Origin: Theristus sp. LFF4_11
Lineage: Eukaryota > Nematoda > Chromadorea > Monhysterida > Xyalidae
Assembly (NCBI GenBank): GCA_030248135.1
Contig: JASANC010004297.1
Coordinates: 1-64,000 of the forward strand
Length of the DNA stretch: 64,000 nucleotides
Reading direction: 5' to 3'
Program-made: the position numbers and the translations under genes
The notes under the pieces: generated by a model
Database searches by the model: none
The model's input: the letters and a program-made list of their open reading frames with translations, nothing else
Told to the model about the DNA's origin: nothing
In this document: piece by piece, positions 17,336-29,300 of the stretch
Position numbering within the stretch: position 1 is the first letter of the stretch
How the letters are laid out: each line of letters opens with the position of its first letter

Positions 17336-20300
17336 TCAGAATTGACTAAACTGCACACGAAACGTGTTGCCGTGCAACTTCGACTGAAACTCGACCAGCA
17401 ACGTGTTGCGACTCCGGCGCGTGATCGTGCCACTCATGTGTTCATGAGTTGGCTGGTGGCCGAAATAGGCCATCAACGATGCATCCACATGCGCTTCAAA
17501 ATTGTCTGAAAAATCCATTTTTTTTAATTGGTTGCTCTCGCCACAGATGTAATGTCCTATTATAACCTCACGCCTACCCGTGCTACCGTAGTCTGTGCTG
17601 CTGATGTGGCGCATGGTCGAGTGCGTGTGAATGCCTAAGCTACTTTCTTGGCATTGGGTCAACTACTTTCTTTTCATTGGTTATCGTTGCGTATAAAGGC
17701 ATTGTTTTCGTTGTTATCTGGGCCACTCTGTTGTTTTACTTTGCCGTGCTGGTTTTATCCTCTCTTCTGAACTAATCGAATAACTGTTCTGTAAAGGAGT
17801 TGGCCAACGTCGAATAAACGAGAAAAGAGAAAGAATTGCGGATTGAAGTTGAGCAACACAAACACAACGCACTCACGCATATTGCAACAGAACCCTAATT
17901 AATTAACTTGCCAATTTCCTTTAACTCAGTCTCGACGACAGCAGATCCGAGCGTGCAGATCGCCACATCGGCGCTCGAGGCCGGGGACTCGGAGCGTGGA
18001 GGTCAACCGTCCTTAGTGCAACAAACCGTTACACCAGGGGAGCACACTTCAGTGGAGGTCCCGCCGATCGAACGCCGGCTGCAAAGGATAAAGGAGCGAG
18101 TCGAGACTCTTGGAGCATCCGTCGAGTGGAGCGTCTGTGCAGTTGAGCTCTTGCGCCGCCCGAATGGTCATGGAGGACCGCGGTTAGCTTGGTGCTCCTG
18201 TGATCAACTTCTGAACAATCGAAGCATCGGGATTGGAGCGTCAGTCGAAAAAGGAAAAAGGAGCGAGTCGAGACCTTGGAGCATCCGTCGAGAGGAGCGA
18301 TTCTACAGTTTGGAATTCCAGCGCTGCTCGAATGGTCATGGAGGACCGCAGCTAGAGTGGAGCGGAGTTTCAATTCATCTGTGTTCTTCCGGCGCTGCTC
18401 GAGGTCATGGAGGACCGCAGCTAAAGTGGAGTTGGACGCCTTATCGAAGTGAAAGAATTGTGAGTTGGGTGCAGTGAGTCTTTGGATTTCTCGGCGGTAT
18501 TTTCACTTTAGCGCTTTCGCTTGGAGCTGTTTTTAATCGAGATTTGTTTGTTTTGTTTGTGCCGAGAATCCAAGTGAACACCCAACCACACGATTGTGAG
18601 CGACGAGTGTCAGCAGTTTGAGTGCCCGTCCTGTTTGGAGCCCCTGTGCAGTTGGAGCTCCTGTGCAGATTGTGCGTCGTCGTTGAGGTTGTGGAGGAGC
18701 GAGGTTGGTGACGGGTGGTGTGAGTTTTCGGACTTTTCTCGGCTACAGGGTGAATCACGTTCGAGCGACGATCAATCCAATTTTTTCTTATTCGTTTTTG
18801 CTTCTTTTTGGTTTTTGTTTTGCCGAGAGTCCGAACACACACACCCGACAGCTGCTATTCGACACACGTACGATCGAAGCGTCAAAGGATCGTGTGATCT
18901 GTTTGTGTTCGACGAAACAACAGCCGCAGTGATCGAAACAGCAGCCTCAGTGAACGAAACAACACCAACCGATCGAAGCAACAGTTGATTTTGGAAACAT
19001 CGAAACAACAGCAGTCGATCGAAGCTTCTGTGATTGTGGAACGATCGATACAACATCAGATCGATCAAAGCGTCGGGACTTCAAGGATCGAATCGACTTC
19101 TGTTCGATCGAAGCTACAATCGGTCTGCGGATCAACAGTGATCGATACAACGTCGATTTGATCGAAGTGTTCGAGTGGAGTGTGTCGCTGCTGTGAAAGT
19201 TGCTGTTCGATTGGATTGTGTTGCTGCAAACGGCTGTTGAGTGTGATCGATTGGAGCGAACAACCGACGATGGGCACAGGCAAGAGAGGGAAACGAGTGA
19301 TGCGACGACGACACGGGGCAGTAATAGAGATGCCATGGAGGGCACATGTCGATCAAAGGATACCGATGCGACAACAACATCAGTCAATGGTGGACCGATA
19401 TGATGTGACCAGCTATCATGTGAATGTCGCCGATCCTCAGACCAGTTGCACAGAAGCCATGGAGGGCACGAGTGCAGGGACTAGTTGTTCGGAGGGACGA
19501 TGGCAGCAGTGCAGTGAGCCGGATAATCAACCGACGTTGTGGGACAATGAAAGTGCAGTGCATTTTCTTAGCCGAGTAACAACTGCGATGCTGGATGGGA
19601 CAGGCTTGGGCGCGGAGATCGTAACATGCATGATCGAGGGACTGCAACAATGGATGCAACAACGTGTTCTGAGGGAGTGCGCGCAGCTTTCCATGGAGGA
19701 AGTCGTTCAAAAGATCCAACAAATGCAGGACGAAGGGAGACGAGACGCTGGTTGTAGCTCATGGAGGAGCGATGCACCGGACGACCCAGGATGTGAGATG
19801 CACACTGCGATGGCAAACGATGACAAGTTGGTGTGCGTAGAAGGAGTCTGGTGTCAAGCGTCCGTCGAGAAGCGAAGAGGTGACAATTACATAACATCAT
19901 GGTGCCTGCAGGAGATCGAAAACCGAATTGGAAGGAAGTTGCATCGGGTCATGGTTGTGGAGAACATCGACGGTGAACGATGCACTGTGATGCGCACACT
20001 TGTTCGAATGCGTCATGGAACGAATGAAGTTGCAGTCCGACTGACGATTGATGATACCTCGGACAACTACGAGATCATCATGGCTGGGGAAGATCACAAG
20101 CTGTTTGCGGTGCCGCGCAAGGAGGGAGAGATGGACGAAAGACCAAAGCGACCAAGGAAAACGGGAAACGAAATGCCGGAAGAACAAAAGAGAAGGTACC
20201 CGTTGCCGAAGTACGCTGCAAAGAGCGAGTCCAAATTGAAAGGCAGGCCTGGCAGAGCGACTGTGAAAGGCAAAGTGACCGTAAAGCCTGGTGAAACAAC

Positions 20301-23300
20301 AACAGCAAAGGTGAAAGTAACACCAGATGAGAACGGACATCACAAGCCACAACAACAAACATCGGTTGCGAGTCACGCGTTCATGTTGCTGCCATCTGAT
20401 AACAACGAGCTGCTGAGCACCTGTTTGGTCGAGTTGTCGGACGAGAACGAAGGACTGGTGCTGTTGACGAATCCGACGAACTGCATGGTGCACTGCGACG
20501 ATGGAATGGAGATCGGCGAAGTGAAGTTGACTCGAATTGTGCCGGATCCACTGAAGCGACAAGAGATGGTGATACCGAAGGAAGCGAAGTTGCCGGACGA
20601 GTGGAACACGGAGGCATGGTGCGTTGCTTGTGGTGACGAGTCGCACAACAAGGATCAGTGCACCGCATATGCTGTCTGGTGGAATCGCAACCTGAATGAA
20701 GACACAGTGATGGAAAGATCTGATGCTGTCGCCATGGTATGTAATCTGCAAGTTGCGAGGCAAGCTGAGATGGAAGGCCGAGTGAGAACGAACGACAAAG
20801 AATGCCAGTACTGCAGATTGCCGGGCTACAACAAACAGCTGTGTACCAACTTGTGTCACCTGATGCCGAAGTTGTTGGATGCTGGTTCGGACGGAGGCAA
20901 TGGAGTGCCGAAGCTGTCGATCGAGGAAAGGAAAGCGAAGTTGGAAAGATGGCTGAATGGAGCGACGGTTGCAGACAAGCTGACAAATCAACAACGCATG
21001 GAGGCGGTGCAGCTATGTCGTGACAATCATGCCGTGTTTCAACTGATGGAAGAGGACAACAGCTGTTGCACAAATGGTCTTCAGTTCAAGAGGGATGCAA
21101 GAGACGCCGAGTCGATGCGACCGAATGGAGGAAACGCAACAGAGTCGAAGAAGATCCTGGAGAAGCAGCTGGAAGTGGTGCTGCAGAAGGATACTGTTGA
21201 AGAGTCGAAGTCGTCGTGGAGGAACCCGTTGGTGATGGTGCGAAGGGACCATGGTGACTTAGACGTTTGCGTGGACTACAGGTCGCTGAACAAAAAGACC
21301 AGCTTCTGCAACAAGGAATCGCTCCCATCGGAATGGATTTTGGAGGAAGTGGCGAGCAAAATGGGAAAATTCCTGTCAGTGATCACGGTCAAGGATGCGT
21401 TCTCAGCCATCAAGATTGAAGATCAACATCGACATGCGACAGCGTTCGATACACCGAATGGCATCGAGTTCCAGCATGGACGACTGAAGTGGACGTTGCA
21501 GAACAGCGAGGAAGCAGTGGCGCGGTTGATGGAGCATGTGGTGAATGGAGTGAACGACGATGCGATGATTGACGTCGACCGGATCATCGTTTCGACGAGC
21601 ACGTTCGAGCGACACAAAGAAGTGCTGCAAAAAGTGTTTGGCCGAATGAAGGACGTTGGACTGTTCGTGGATACGAAGAAGTGTCAGCTGTTCAAGGATG
21701 AAGTTCGAATGGATGGATATCTGGTGAATCAGAAAGGCATGTTCACGGATCCGGAAACGGTGCGACAGATTCAGGATTGGCCGACACCTGCGAAAAAGGA
21801 GGAGTTGATCGCGTTCGTCGCGCAGTGCTCGGTTTACTGCCATGTGATTCCAGACTACGCCGAAATAGTGAAGCCGCTGTTCGACAAGACGCAGAGCGAC
21901 GGAAACTTCGAATGGAAAGACGAAGAGCAAGAAGCGTTCGTGGATCTGAAAGGAACGGTGAATTCGGTCAATCATTGTGGTACGCTGGACAGAATGGAGC
22001 CGTGTTTGATTCGAGCGTTCGTGCACGACAACGATGTATCCGTCAGACTGGAACAATTCAACGGAAATGGACTGGATCTGATATCAGCTCGCTCGCGACA
22101 ATTGACGAAAAGGGAAACGCAGCTAGATCAATGGGAAAAGAAATGCATTGCTGTACGATGGGGCATGGAGGCCTGGAGCAGCGTGCTAAAAGACATGGAG
22201 GTCATCCTAGTGATGGGTGAAGAACATCTAAAGGAAGTGATGGCGCAGAAGCTGCTCGGCATTGCGAACACTAGGGACTGGCTGTCGTATTTGGCGAGGC
22301 TGGGACCAAGAGTGGCGCTTGTGGAGGAACAAGATCTGGGTTACCGATTGCCGATGCCAGTGGAGCACCAACAGATCAGGCTAGCGTGTCGCGATTCGCA
22401 ACGATTGGAACAAGTGCTCGACTACTTGGAGGAATGGGCGAAGGACGATTTGAGGTCGAGTAACTTAAAGATCGTGGACAACTTGAGTTGGCGAGTGACG
22501 ATTGAGGATCCAGCGCAGCATGACGAATTGCAGTTTGATGCAGCGTTGAATGGTTACAGCACGGAGAAGTGGGCGGACGAGTACGGCTGCTATCCATCGA
22601 TCGGATTTGAAGGAACAAAAGATGGCGACGACAACTTCAGTGTCAGAGCGGCGGTTGGCTTGGTGACGACGACGGAGATGACGGACATGGATGCGAAGGC
22701 ACAGGACGACGAGAAGCAAATGCAGTTGGATGAGCAACACGCTAGGAGAAGTCAGAAAATGCGAAGTCTGCGCAATCTGAAAAGATGGTTGCAGACAGGA
22801 GGAACGAAAGATCGAACGAATGCAGATGGACTTCGTTGGCGACGTGGCTTTGACAACTGCTTTGTAAAGGATGGACTGCTGTACTACTGGACGCCGAATG
22901 AAGATCGACATCGGATGCTGTTGACGCGAAATGCTGGAATGAGTCTGCTGTGGCAATGTAAAGATCGAGAGGAAAGACATCGAGTGCTACGATCGTTTTG
23001 GTGGTTTGGTGTGGAACAGGACGCTATCGATTGGAGCCAGATGGACGATTGGAACAGTGGAACAGTCCAGCAGAAGTCTGAACCATCTGAATGTGCGTTG
23101 CAGAGGTACAGTAGAGAAAGGAGATCTGTGTCCGACGTCGCAACTGCCAACGCAGGATATGGAGATCCGTGGTCATCATCGTTGCCGAGGAGGCCGAATT
23201 TCGACGACGTGCCACCGCAAAATGGATTGTGTTCTGACGGTGACATTGACAACAGCGAAAACGGACGGACAAAGTGGACAAGATCGAATCGCAGTGACGA

Positions 23301-26300
23301 AGGAACACGACGGGCTGCAGACGGTGGATGCTTGGCGAGATGGCAGCGGAGAAAAAGGATGGAGTGTTGCTGTTCGCGTTCGATTGTTGGTGGTTCTGCG
23401 AAGTGCATGGAGGCACGGTGCGGTTGTCGAGATTGATTGGAAATGCGAGGAAGGATCTGTTGGCGGAAACTAACAAGAGTGGCGTAACATTGTTTGTTTG
23501 AACCTGGCACCTGGAGGAACCAAACGATAACGATCGTCAACAGTTTGATTGTTTTGCTTCGTTTCAACAGTTCTACAGTTTGGATAGCAACAGTGCAATA
23601 GAGCTACAGCGCATCAAAGCAACAGTACAACAAAGCAACAATACAACAGAAGTTTTGCAGTTCAACAGTTTTGTTTCATCGATCGATCCAACAGTTTCAT
23701 CGGCACCAACAGTTTGATTTTTGGCGATTTGTTTGCTGCTTGATACGAAATAACGGTTAAAACAACAGCTTCAACGCATCATTTCACGACAAATGGATTC
23801 ATCTTGGCTTCAACATTTTGCCCTTGTGACACGCCAGTTGCTATGGAGAGCTTCTGGGCACGACGATCAAGTAATGTGAAATTGCCTTGGATGCAGTGGG
23901 AGCGAAAACGAAGCGACTGCGTCACTGTGATGATGTGTTGCTTTGATTCGATTCCGTTGGATTGTGGACGTTTGGAAATGTCTTCGAAGGGAGAAGTTGT
24001 CAGCAATAAAAGATCGACGATGTCAGCAAATCTTCATCTCATCCAATATATTGCGCTGGACTTCAATTGGTTTCAACAGTTCTTCTATTTGATGTACGGC
24101 TGCAACAGAGTTTCATTTGTTTCCTTCTGTTCAGGATTGGATTCACTGGATAACTGAATCATTCTGAAAGAAACAAATTGAAATAATCCGAAATGGACCA
24201 AGCGAAAAGCGCCGACGACTTTAATTCGGATAAGAAGACCAACGGCGCAGCTGGAGCAAAGAAGGACGATCCGACGGCAGTTGCTGAGTCACCAAAAGAG
24301 AGCGAAGTAGTCGGATGGGCAAATTGTCGACTGCGTGAACGCGTCGATGAAGAGCTTGAAAAGCGATCGCTCCCGGATGTCGATGGTTAGTGTGTTCCAG
24401 TGCAGTTCTGGATTGGATTGGAGCAGCGGCGTTTTCTGTTGGACAAATGATTGAGTGTGTAGCAGACTGGCCATCTGTGATGCGACTCAACATTGGATAA
24501 TGTCACGTGGTGCTGTGTTCGTCGGTCCGATGGAGTTGTTGCTGTGAAATGGACACGAATAATTTGTTGACGGGAGATGGAGTACTCCACTCAGTGTATG
24601 AAACCTGAGTTTGCGCAAATCAGGACCCGCAATTGACGTCTGGAAGACCCGGGGGGGGTTTTTTTTAACCCCCACATTTGTTGAATCTCCGCAACAAACA
24701 GAAAAAACATCGTGTCGAAGAAGCTGAGACAGAAATTGTTTCAGTGAACGGCGACAGCGCGAATACTGACAAAAAGCAGCGCGCAAACGTGACGATGGAG
24801 CAAATGGGAGACGCTGTTGCGACGCCGCTGGAAGCTGCACTGACTGCTGGACATCCGTCGTGTGACTTGCCGCTGTCGGACAATTCGAATGGAGTGAGTG
24901 AGAGCGCTTGGCCATGGAGGGCAGCCGACTTCAAAGGAGCGTTATTTCGAATGTTTGATGTTTGGATTCGTTTTTTTTCGATCTACAAAGCAGCAGTTGC
25001 AAGCTGCATTGATTGTGATGTCAAGGGTCGACATCATTTGGAGGGAAGGTGGAGGCTATGCAACTGCAGCCGTAAAGCCGACAACAGTTAAGGGTACAAC
25101 AGTAAAAGATGTAACAGCAACGGCGTAACGTAAAGGATTGGAGCTGACTGACTGACGACTTCGGAGGGATCGAAAAGAGGGTTGTCGTATTGTTGCAGGA
25201 AAACGCAGTCGAGAAGGGGAATGCCGCACTGCAAACGGATCGATCGATTGACGCTGAGATAAAAGAAGCAGCTGATTCAAAGCCCATGGAGGGGTTGACA
25301 GCGACTGGAATGATGGTGGCTGTTGACGACTCGAACAGATGGAAAAGAGCGTGTGGTGTGTGCAAGCATCGTGGGCATCACGAGTTACGTTGTCGCATGC
25401 AGGAACTCAAGCGCATGGAGGCGTTGTTCTTGCCGGAGCAGTATCGAGTGGCGATGGGAACGTATTGGTGCGCTCTTCCGCATGCTGACGATGATCGAAT
25501 GCACGACAAGATCTTCTACGCGCACGGAGTCATTGGAGCGTTTGGAAATGTGCCGATCGAGACGTTGCCGACTGGTAACGAAAGCGAATGGGCGATTACG
25601 ACGAACAAGCATGGAGAGTGGCTGAAGTTCCCAGATCCGATGTACCCGGTCGATGAGGACAATCGCAGCAAGACGCATGGTTTCTTGGTGATGCGCGCGG
25701 AAACGACTATTCTACCAGGTGGTCGATTGACGGTGGGACAGACGCAAGCAGAAGTGATCTTGCCGCAATACCGTTGGAAGAACATGTCAACTCTGTCAGT
25801 CACGCAAGAGATGCGAGATGCGGTGAACAGTGCTACGGCATACGCAGGAGTTGGTCCGTTGCGAGTGGACGCGCTGAAACACTATCAGCCTGAGCTTGTG
25901 ATTCAGCATGAACCGCAAGGATTCGATGTGTTCAAGTGGTGCCGTTGGCATTTGCGAGTCCATCTGCAAAACTGTGAGCCGTCGGAGTGCGACACGTTCC
26001 TGTGGGATCAAGAGTATTTCGGTGCGTATCGCGATCGTTCAACGCGTCTGTCAATTCCTGTGATGAATAGAGCTGGAGAAGCGTTCGTTCCGCGTTTGGA
26101 TGGAGACTGGGTGTTTTGTCGGCAGATGAACTGGTGGATTCAAGATTTGCATAACAGTCTGTGGCATTACATCAAGCAGTGTGAAGCGTCGAAGCGTGGC
26201 GAGGCTGAAAGACCACCGGAGGGAGACCCGGCGGATGTGTTGCGTGCCCAAATGCGACCGGTGCGATCGCCGTATCAGTCGAGTCGTCTGGAGCAGTATC

Positions 26301-29300
26301 TGTCTGCATATTCGGCTATATTGCGCCCGGGACTTTATCGCAGTACGACGATGGTTGCTGATGGATCGGGAGCTACGAATGGATCGGTGCAACAGGAGGC
26401 CATAGATGGATCTGTGCGACAGAAGGTCATGGAGGACCATTCGAGTTCGAGTGGAGGATTGCGAGAGCGCATGGAGGCGCAAGGGCTGTGTGTGACGTGT
26501 TGTCGACCGCGTCATGGACCCCAGCGATGCCCGTTGCCAGGAGAAGAAGAAGCGTTGGAGCGACAACTGGAGGAAGCTTGGGATGCTGCTACACCGCCAC
26601 CAGGATTGCGAGGACGTGAGAAAGCGGCGGCCCTGGAACGAAAACGCGAGTTGCAATTGGCAGCGTTGGAGCGTTATCGAGAGGGATGGCGACAGCTGCA
26701 CACGTCAACGTACGATTTCTATCTGGGCGATGTTCGAGAGGAATTGGCTGCGGCAGCGCGTCGAGAGACGAATCGTTCACGTGTCCGAGGCGAACACAAT
26801 CGCGGAGGCAAGCAGTAGTGATGGTTGTGATTGGTTTGGCTCAGGGGCAGAAGTCTAGTTTACTTGTTTTCTGCAGTTTGTTTAGCTTGGCAAAAATTTG
26901 GTTTCGTTTGGTTTCCTTTTGGATTTTTCGTTTGGAACTCCGAGCCAATAGAAATTCAGGATAGTTTTGTTTGTTTGGGTTTTTCCAGTTTGTTCAGTTT
27001 GGTGCTGAGAGGTGTCCAGGATAATTTGTGTACTGTTTTATTTTTAGAGTGGGCCCAGATTGTCAGTTTTGTTGTTTTCCAAGTTGTCAAGTTGTCATTT
27101 ATTTTGTGCTTTTTGAGTAACCCACTACGAGTGCTGTTTTATTGAAAATTGGATGTTTAAAAGTTGCCTAGAAGTTGTTCTCTGTTTTGCTTTTATTTCG
27201 GGTTTTCTGATTCATTCAAGTTCGCCGAAAAAAAAGGTGTGTTTTGTTTCGTCTAACGTTTAAAGAAGACTTTTGGTTTTGTAGTGGCCATTTTTGAAGT
27301 TTTGCTTTGTATGTTTGGTTTCTGCTGCTAACCGTCCTAAAGTATTTGTTCATTGTCGTTGTCTAGTACCGTTTTTTAAAGTAGGAGGGGGATAATTTGT
27401 GCTTTGAATTTTGTTCGTTTTGTTTTGTCTTTATTTTTGGTGGTTTCCTGGTGCAGGTCGTTCGTCGAGCGCCGGAGACAAGTTTGTGGAAGTTTAGTGT
27501 TTTGTTTGTTTTCCAAGTTTTGAATTTGTCATCAAAAGCCCCAGGTGCAGGCGTTTGTAGTAACAGGGTCTCTTCTTTTCGGCAGGGGCTGTAATTCAGT
27601 AAAAGTACAAATTGGTGATTTTGGTGTTTAAGGAAAGTCGAAGAAGTTTCATTTTTTGTGATTTATTTCTTTTTGAAAAGTTCAGGAGTAATAGTTAGTA
27701 GAATCTGTTTTGTCAGTTTACTAATGGTGCTTGTTTTGTGATTTGTACTTTGTAAGTTGAATAAGTTTGTACTTTGTAATTCGAATGTAAAGTGTTTTTG
27801 TAATTGTTTTGTTGTGTAGTTGCAAGTGTTGACTAAGTAGAGACGCGTTTGCAGGTCGGAGGCGATGTGCAGTTCCGCCGCATGGTGTCGGGGGGCATAG
27901 GTCGTCGTGAGGGCACTCCGAATAGGAGGGGGATACTGTAATGTCCTATTATAACCTCACGCCTACCCGTGCTACCGTAGTCTGTGCTGCTGATGTGGCG
28001 CATGGTCGAGTGCGTGTGAATGCCTAAGCTACTTTCTTGGCATTGGGTCAACTACTTTCTTTTCATTGGTTATTGTTGCGTATAAAGGCATTGTTTTCGT
28101 TGTTATCTGGGCCACTCTGTTGTTTTACTTTGCCGTGCTGGTTTTATCCTCTCTTCTGAACTAATCGAATAACTGTTCTGTAAAGGAGTTGGCCAACGTC
28201 GAATAAACGAGAAAAGAGAAAGAATTGCGGATTGAAGTTGAGCAACACAAACACAACGCACTCACGCATATTGCAACAGAACCCTAATTAATTAACTTGC
28301 CAATTTCCTTTAACTCAGTCTCGACGACAGCAGATCCGAGCGTGCAGATCGCCACATCGGCGCTCGAGGCCGGGGACTCGGAGCGTGGAGGTCAACCGTC
28401 CTTAGTGCAACAAACCGTTACACCAGGGGAGCACACTTCACAGATTCTAGAAACTACGACGTTTAAGCGAATCCTTAAACTGCGAAGTTTAAAGCTACAT
28501 CAATTCACCACTGAATCGTCCAAAACCACAACGGGGTGGCTGCCTTTCGGCGACCGTTTGCCCCTCTCGAGGTCAGGGCTTACCCCCAATGGCCAAGTAA
28601 CCATCAGAATTTTGCGACCGCTTGCACGAATTTCTAGAACCGGTGGGCGAAGATGCTTCAACAAAGAACAGAGTAGTTTTACACAAACAATAAAATGACT
28701 AATACAAAAAAAACAACGAACACTGCGGCACCAGCAGCCGTGCGATGTCGATGGGCGGTTTCGGTTCGGCCGAATTACCCGCAAGCGAACAGCGATCGCG
28801 CGTGTCGAACAGAGCGACCAGTTGCATCCAGTCGCAAACCGTTGGACTCGCCAGTGACGAATCGCGAGGGGACAGATCAAACGTCGACACGTGCAGTCGA
28901 CGCAGCCGGGGACAGTCGCGCGCGAACGAATGCAACAGCCAGCGGGCGTCGAACAGCCTGCATAAATCGAGAGAAACGCTAGCAAGCAGTCCGTCGTGTC
29001 CGTGCACACAACGCCGTACGATGTGTGCGACACACCGTTTATGACGCACGTCACGATGCGGTTTCTTTGACACGAGACCACAAGCAAACGTACACGAAAT
29101 CATGTGCTTGTGGTGTGATTGAAATATCCACTGTGTCCAATGTCCAAATGTCCAATGTCCACTGTCCACAATGTCCATTTCTCCATTATTCGCCACTGGT
29201 TTTCCCCAGCGGCCTTTCACCAAAAAACCCTGATAGTAAGTACTGACGGCCACTTTGCTTTAGCAAGGGCAACACTTTGCTCGCACCTTGTATAATGGTG

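Follow-up and report, generated by a model that had tools for sequence, protein, structure and literature searches.

Results

A retrotransposon with an array of hairpins

The window, a stretch of 64,000 nucleotides from the nematode Theristus sp. LFF4_11 (contig JASANC010004297.1, positions 1 to 64,000), contains a long terminal repeat (LTR) retrotransposon whose plus strand carries 18 short hairpins with the same six-base loop, ATGGAG. The two LTRs were 99.8% identical, suggesting that the insertion is young. Two long open reading frames (ORFs) follow an apparently untranslated leader; the first has gag-like, reverse transcriptase (RT)-like, and RNase H-like parts, and the second encodes two zinc knuckles of the CCHC type. 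The features of the element are listed below.

17548..18051, plus strand: 5' LTR, compared with the 3' LTR across 504 bases
18166..18179, plus strand: leader hairpin, GGTC-ATGGAG-GACC
18334..18347, plus strand: leader hairpin, GGTC-ATGGAG-GACC
18403..18416, plus strand: leader hairpin, GGTC-ATGGAG-GACC
19180..23436, plus strand: ORF1, comprising a gag-like part (one CCHC knuckle), an RT-like part that lacks YxDD, and an RNase H-like part
19331..19344, plus strand: hairpin in ORF1, TGCC stem
19456..19467, plus strand: hairpin in ORF1, GCC stem (family D has a TCCC-stem hairpin at the same codon place)
19757..19770, plus strand: hairpin in ORF1, GCTC stem
20896..20909, plus strand: hairpin in ORF1, GGCA stem
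20995..21006, plus strand: hairpin in ORF1, CGC stem
22162..22173, plus strand: hairpin in ORF1, GGC stem
22192..22203, plus strand: hairpin in ORF1, GAC stem (the family D hairpin at this place has 5 bp)
23155..23168, plus strand: hairpin in ORF1, GGAT stem
23403..23416, plus strand: hairpin at the end of ORF1, GTGC stem
23840..23851, plus strand: hairpin between ORF1 and ORF2, GCT stem
24911..24922, plus strand: hairpin between ORF1 and ORF2, GCC stem
25190..26818, plus strand: ORF2, 542 residues, two CCHC knuckles
25283..25294, plus strand: hairpin in ORF2, CCC stem
25412..25423, plus strand: hairpin in ORF2, CGC stem
26425..26438, plus strand: hairpin in ORF2, GGTC stem
26467..26480, plus strand: hairpin in ORF2, GCGC stem (family C has an AGC-stem hairpin at the same place)
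27937..28440, plus strand: 3' LTR, second member of the 504-base comparison

The word ATGGAG occurred 32 times on the sense strand of 18166-26480, not about 31 times as the first-pass annotation of this DNA had it. A perfect Watson-Crick stem of at least 3 bp around a six-base loop enclosed 18 of these words, the number given by that annotation, and ten of the 18 stems were 4 bp long. All 12 stem types listed there were recovered, with GCC as an extra type, and the three leader hairpins it had reported were found as GGTC-stem copies at 18166, 18334, and 18403. The antisense strand of the region, a control it had proposed, contained no ATGGAG word. Outside the element, the window held 10 plus-strand and 19 minus-strand ATGGAG words, none of which (0/29) had a 3-bp stem, in agreement with the earlier remark that the host words looked at in the window lack such a stem. 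The frequent close pairs of hairpins that had also been described did not hold up, as no excess over random placement was detected (P = 0.21 in the window and 0.51-0.96 in the other families introduced below).

Loop and stem of the motif

All loop words of 3-8 bases were scanned in the window element. The next-best six-base loop formed two hairpins, and no comparable word appeared among loops of 3, 4, 5, 7, or 8 bases, the 8-base match CATGGAGG representing the same hairpins. When 18050-28073 was subjected to 100 dinucleotide shuffles, ATGGAG hairpins numbered 0.11 on average and 2 at most, compared with the 18 observed, and no 6-mer formed more than 3 hairpins in a shuffled sequence. This check had been proposed in the first-pass annotation, as had the codon shuffles described below, and both favored its claim.

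The motif was characterized in a pool containing one copy of each of four related families (the window copy for family A, L033 for B, L036 for C, and L038 for D), from which near-duplicate fetched copies were excluded. Stems of at least 3 bp were present at 52 of the 105 pooled ATGGAG words, compared with only 4 of the 386 words representing the 18 single-letter loop variants. The core of the motif was CATGGAGG, the closing pair being C-G in 47 of the 52 hairpins. The second stem pair was C-G in 18 cases, T-A in 16, G-C in 8, A-T in 7, and other in 3. The flanks had earlier been described as differing between copies while staying complementary; the stems indeed vary and pair, but the closing pair is not free.

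Pairing beyond the core was examined by permutation, with CATGGAGG words taken irrespective of their stem, so that the test was not circular. In the four families, the next position was paired in 49 of 52 words (permuted mean 14.9, maximum 27) and the position after it also in 49 of 52 (mean 18.2, maximum 31); both were paired in 47 of 52 (mean 5.8, maximum 15). In the window alone, 15 of the 16 CATGGAGG words paired at both positions, compared with a permuted mean of 2.4 and a maximum of 8. Folding with 70-base flanks gave a higher mean pair probability for the pooled hairpins than the 0.16 obtained for 387 further hairpins with six-base loops in these elements, a difference partly accounted for by their GC-rich stems (74% versus 48%).

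Extensions of the motif were also tried and rejected. Offset or larger stems at stemless ATGGAG words gave no signal, and no bulge geometry gave a lower stem in more than 3 of the 52 hairpins. None of the five- and seven-base loop variants was convincing; ATGGA loops formed hairpins at 3 of 58 words in the element and 6 of 197 in the pool, leaving the five-base-loop variant noted earlier without clear support. A search of 17500-28500 against Rfam returned no match at gathering score.

Coding constraint

Chance, composition, or coding constraint could be invoked to explain the hairpins, since ATGGAG words are frequent partly through Met-Glu codons, and synonymous-codon shuffles still yielded 2.5-10.3 such words per ORF. 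The stems, however, were not reproduced. In 1000 codon shuffles of seven pooled ORFs, hairpins numbered 2.1 on average and 7 at most, compared with 38 observed, indicating that the array is not driven by the proteins; for 4-bp stems, the mean was 0.9 and the maximum 6, compared with 24 observed. The two window ORFs contained 9 and 4 hairpins, compared with shuffle means of 0.43 (maximum 4) and 0.16 (maximum 2), respectively. Single ORFs were less extreme, as in C2 (3 observed, shuffle maximum 2), but with the families pooled no shuffle or permutation came near the observed number of stems, and we give this explanation a negligible probability. The earlier statement that the loop falls in each of the three reading frames was correct for ORF1, whereas the four hairpins of ORF2 all lie in one frame.

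Related families and turnover of hairpin places

The genome (159 Mb, 3744 contigs) was searched with the leader (18150-18450), which gave at least 56 matches, 40 of 74 candidates being scored. Thirty loci were sorted into families by the sequence downstream of the leader. Of 16 fetched pieces, 13 contained 7-15 hairpins each, including L031, which had 11 although it was cut off at a contig end; the remaining L039, L041, and L043, with 1, 2, and 4 hairpins, are apparently short or partial elements. Minus-strand ATGGAG words numbered 0-2 per piece and formed no hairpins. With the three leader hairpins of these contigs added, the totals were 13 and 15 for family B, 16 for C, and 14 for D, compared with 18 in the window. 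Short B-like derivatives (L034, L044, L045, and L046) carried 7-9 hairpins within about 2.5 kb, and L034 had 9 when two in the leader were included. L034 and L044 also contain a 197-codon ORF whose start resembles the family B gag, and L045 has a tblastn match to that ORF.

The proteins of families A-D shared 22-46% identity over matched parts. The outer LTR was 75-81% identical between families, where it matched at all, and the leader DNA mostly 87-97% (80% for one L030 piece). Homologous hairpin places were few: 2 of 7 between the ORF1 sequences of A and D, 1 of 3 between the ORF2 sequences of A and C, and 0 of 15 in seven other comparisons. Two of the shared places differ by paired substitutions (GCC in A to CCC in D; CGC in A to AGC in C), and at the third, shared by A and D, the same stem is lengthened. 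Because the arrays of the families lie at mostly non-homologous places, we conclude from these comparisons that the motif and its approximate number are kept while the hairpin places turn over.

Distribution between the element clan and the host

We use the term clan for these four families. The 12-mer hairpin sequence GACATGGAGGTC was found at 32 genome places, 20 of which were on contigs with clan members (contigs were sorted by hand, and four clan contigs were identified only through protein matches). The stemless control GTCATGGAGGTC occurred at 11 places, none on a clan contig (Fisher P = 0.0003 versus GACATGGAGGTC), and the reversed patterns of GACATGGAGGTC and GTCATGGAGGTC occurred at 26 and 6 places, respectively. 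The 12 GACATGGAGGTC places outside clan contigs were at the level of the 11 for the stemless control.

Host sequence was sampled in the window and in the locus ends. The latter comprised 55,814 strand-bases, taken as non-element by distance only, in which neither of two ATGGAG words had a hairpin. In L057 and L058 (13 kb), which are distant Gypsy-like stretches of this genome, five ATGGAG words were present on both strands and no hairpin of this kind. Within the sequence sampled, the array is associated with the element clan rather than with the host.

Substitutions among copies

Copies were compared on 19 contigs for family A (some leader only), 8 for B, 4 for C, and 3 for D, after exclusion of the reference contig itself and of alignments shorter than 400 bases or below 88% identity. 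Substitutions were found at 2 of 1356 sites in hairpin loops, 7 of 1354 in stems, and 101 of 5418 in flanks, while ATGGAG words without a stem had 12 in 1035. Fisher tests, which are optimistic because the copies are related, gave P = 6e-8 for loops versus flanks, 1.4e-4 for stems versus flanks, and 0.0017 for hairpin loops versus stemless words. Both loop changes and three stem changes were located in two locally disrupted copies, and two stem changes in family C formed a compensated pair (GCC/GGC to GTC/GAC).

The first-pass annotation had taken the array for a selected structure, a view borne out by the loop scan, the codon shuffles, the other families, the substitution rates, and the flank permutation. 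On this sequence evidence, there is strong support for a selected RNA structure whose loop is fixed and whose stems covary.

Proteins of the clan

Family B (L033) has the domain order of an autonomous Ty3/Gypsy element in one ORF, with Pfam matches to RVT_1, RT_RNaseH, Integrase_H2C2, and rve, and its RT motif is YLDD. RT, RNase H, and integrase are thus all present in Gypsy order. At the position of YLDD, the window copy (A) has DVDR, D has EFER, and C has GDHQ, and RT stretches are missing from C and D in the alignment. A tblastn search with the integrase part of family B found no match in the window (A), L036 (C), or L038 (D). The window copy, with DVDR in place of YLDD and no integrase match, differs in these respects from an autonomous Ty3/Gypsy element. 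Its ORF1 matches RVT_1 and RNase H-like Pfam models.

The ratio of nonsynonymous to synonymous change (pN/pS) among ORF1 copies was 0.20-0.32 in A, 0.50 in C, 0.18 in D, and 0.12 in B, and among ORF2 copies 0.00-0.90, with few changes in each case. A single stop was present in one copy of A ORF1 and in one of A ORF2. ORF1 of A, C, and D thus stays open with pN/pS below 1 despite the replaced YxDD and the absence of a detected integrase. These three families look like satellites that keep a gag/RT-like protein.

The Gag parts of A, B, and D each contain one CCHC motif and one C-x2-C-x4-Y-x4-C motif. The latter, a further knuckle-like motif in which Tyr replaces His (C-x2-C-x-LPGY-x-K-x-L-C), was seen within residues 667-737 of the L033 ORF and in ORF1 of A and D. 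An ORF2 with two widely spaced CCHC knuckles follows the RT-like ORF in A, C (L036:6544-8295), and D (L038). The ORF2 proteins of A and C had no Pfam match, that of the window at E 0.1. Structure predictions made without an alignment had a mean predicted local distance difference test (pLDDT) score of 36 for ORF2 and 40 for part of ORF1 and were not used. In the leader, a frame without stops runs from the LTR across the repeats (17908-18477), with a GHGGP unit at each hairpin; single-base shifts between loci within it suggest that this frame is not coding.

Discussion

A possible packaging code

We propose that the array consists of dispersed recognition sites for a zinc knuckle of the clan Gag, through which helper and satellite RNAs would be packaged, and we put the probability of this reading at about 0.5. 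Each transcript would carry about 9-18 such sites. In every one of these short hairpins the loop would be AUGGAG and the closing pair almost always C-G, the stem letters being free as long as they pair. A reader common to the clan RNAs is suggested by the identical sense-strand loops, which were seen in this one clan only and are kept in copies without a detectable integrase. A Gag knuckle would be the most economical such reader, because knuckles grip exposed G bases in loops such as the GGAG of HIV-1 (PMC7599994) and the dispersed-packaging model builds on scattered loops that share a motif (PMC6281560); the Gag parts of A, B, and D do contain knuckles. The Gag of family B appears the best candidate, since B alone here has both the RT motif and the integrase. 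Many copies per RNA could allow Gag to assemble cooperatively on clan RNAs and enclose them in particles, and the satellites (A, C, D, and the short B-like derivatives) may keep the array as an entry pass to those particles. That a protein reads the hairpins, that this protein is Gag, and that the outcome is packaging are steps which we infer, and it is plausible that zinc knuckles read the array as a set of packaging signals. More tentatively, with somewhat less than even odds, helper and satellites would form a clan sharing one exact hexaloop hairpin, read by the Gag knuckle and continually re-created at new places; the code linking RNA to particle would then have stayed fixed even as protein identity fell to 22-46%.

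Several observations weigh against this proposal. The total of 32 places for GACATGGAGGTC is close to the 26 of its reversed control, so only location speaks for the clan. The mean pair probability of the hairpins with 70-base flanks was only 0.52, and 23 of the 52 were at or below 0.5. Permutations of substitution counts were not significant for any family alone (0.065, 0.089, 0.11, and 0.41). Uncompensated stem changes had been named in the first-pass annotation as evidence against selection; besides the compensated pair in family C, two of the changes seen among copies disrupt a stem pair and have no compensating partner. No knuckle of either type could be recognized in ORF1 of family C, where the reader would thus need to be the C ORF2 protein, the Gag of another family, or a host protein. 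With the three ORF2 proteins as queries, tblastn found no match at E 0.01 in five array-bearing B-type pieces, although ORF2 was one of the two readers suggested in the first-pass annotation. No protein homologue was found at E 0.001 for ORF2 of A, among 7995 candidates sharing most words, or for residues 40-360 of the family B ORF. Published work, known here from excerpts of the papers cited in this and the following paragraphs, also calls for caution. Dispersed packaging signals in satellite tobacco necrosis virus 1 (STNV-1) are described as having no discernible significance in vivo (PMC6475782), replacement of the GGAG loop in human immunodeficiency virus 1 (HIV-1) had no significant effect on packaging (PMC7599994), and the RNA binding of Ty1 Gag is reported to be of low specificity, a preference for Ty1 RNA showing only under competition (PMC8396678).

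An element-encoded protein might instead read the hairpins for another RNA step, such as nuclear export, localization, or a switch between translation and packaging, and the ORF2 double-knuckle protein, common to A, C, and D and encoded after the RT-like ORF, would be a possible reader. In the C. elegans element Cer1, the element-encoded CERV is needed for export of the genomic RNA (PMC10309623). However, family B has the array without an ORF2 match, and CERV is described in the same excerpt as having a possible C4 finger rather than CCHC pairs, the likeness being one of description; we consider this explanation unlikely. A host RNA-binding protein, LIN28-like or another loop binder, that the clan exploits for stability, localization, or translation seems about as improbable. 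The zinc knuckles of LIN28 bind a GGAG loop (PMC3759924), and a loop that is invariant across divergent families is what one common reader would produce. In contrast, the sampled host sequence gave no sign of host use (0/29 window words and 0/2 locus-end words with a hairpin), GACATGGAGGTC places off clan contigs were at control level (12 versus 11), the two distant Gypsy-like stretches lack the array, and LIN28 sites read GGAGA, whereas G follows GGAG in 47 of the 52 hairpins. The hairpins could also act in single-stranded complementary DNA (cDNA) as pause, strand-transfer, or recombination sites during reverse transcription. Plus-strand DNA can form the same hairpin, and the contrast between the leader DNA of the families, mostly 87-97% identical, and their proteins, at 22-46%, is consistent with template switching. 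In our judgement, a requirement specific to loop sequence and strand would be unusual for such a role, and the arrays extend throughout the element at positions that mostly differ between families, so that a cDNA role is given very little weight.

If recognition by Gag is correct, the array might offer a way to tell from sequence alone which elements share a particle, and it might serve as a model for the coupling of satellite and helper.

Comparison with known systems

In the literature outside subscription papers and preprints, none of the matches listed had a title dealing with an array of ATGGAG/AUGGAG hairpins in a retroelement. The first-pass annotation had drawn a parallel with the binding of a GGAG loop by HIV-1 nucleocapsid. 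The stem-loop SL3 of the HIV-1 Psi region is closed by a C-G pair, as are most hairpins of the array. SL3 presents GGAG in its apical loop, where zinc knuckles grip two exposed G bases (PMC7599994), and the array loop AUGGAG likewise contains GGAG. The parallel therefore stands for the GGAG in the loop; it is weakened by the replacement result given above and by the fact that SL3 is a single tetraloop in the leader, whereas the array comprises 18 hexaloops, 15 of them outside the leader. In LIN28 sites of pre-let-7 and messenger RNAs, the loop GGAG shared by the array is read by two CCHC knuckles (PMC3759924). LIN28, however, is a host regulator, and its sites are described in that excerpt as GGAGA(U), without a fixed hexaloop or closing pair, while the array mostly has GGAGG (47/52).

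Among retroelements, the clan resembles Ty3/Gypsy elements with non-autonomous partners, as family B has the Gypsy domain order and A, C, and D are satellite-like. Unlike the usual partners, these satellites retain a long gag/RT-like ORF with pN/pS below 1 and an ORF2 with two knuckles. Cer1 of C. elegans is also of the Gypsy type and has an extra ORF after pol, whose product CERV handles genomic RNA, and A, C, and D of the clan also carry ORF2; the excerpt on Cer1 (PMC10309623) does not mention a hairpin array, and the element is set beside the clan by description.

The array also resembles the dispersed packaging signals proposed by Twarock, Stockley, and co-workers for MS2, STNV, and hepatitis B virus (HBV), in which many stem-loops per RNA share a loop motif (PMC6281560), as was found here. 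There is dispute over packaging via many dispersed signals, and those put forward to date are described as short and degenerate; the MS2 motif consists of (x)xYA within the loop together with a bulged A (PMC6281560). In contrast, the loop of the array is an exact hexamer closed by C-G, and its host molecule is an LTR retrotransposon known from sequence alone. The motif can be counted, occurs in four divergent families, and is absent from the sampled host sequence, which makes the idea directly testable; if true, few natural examples of a distributed packaging code would be as clear.

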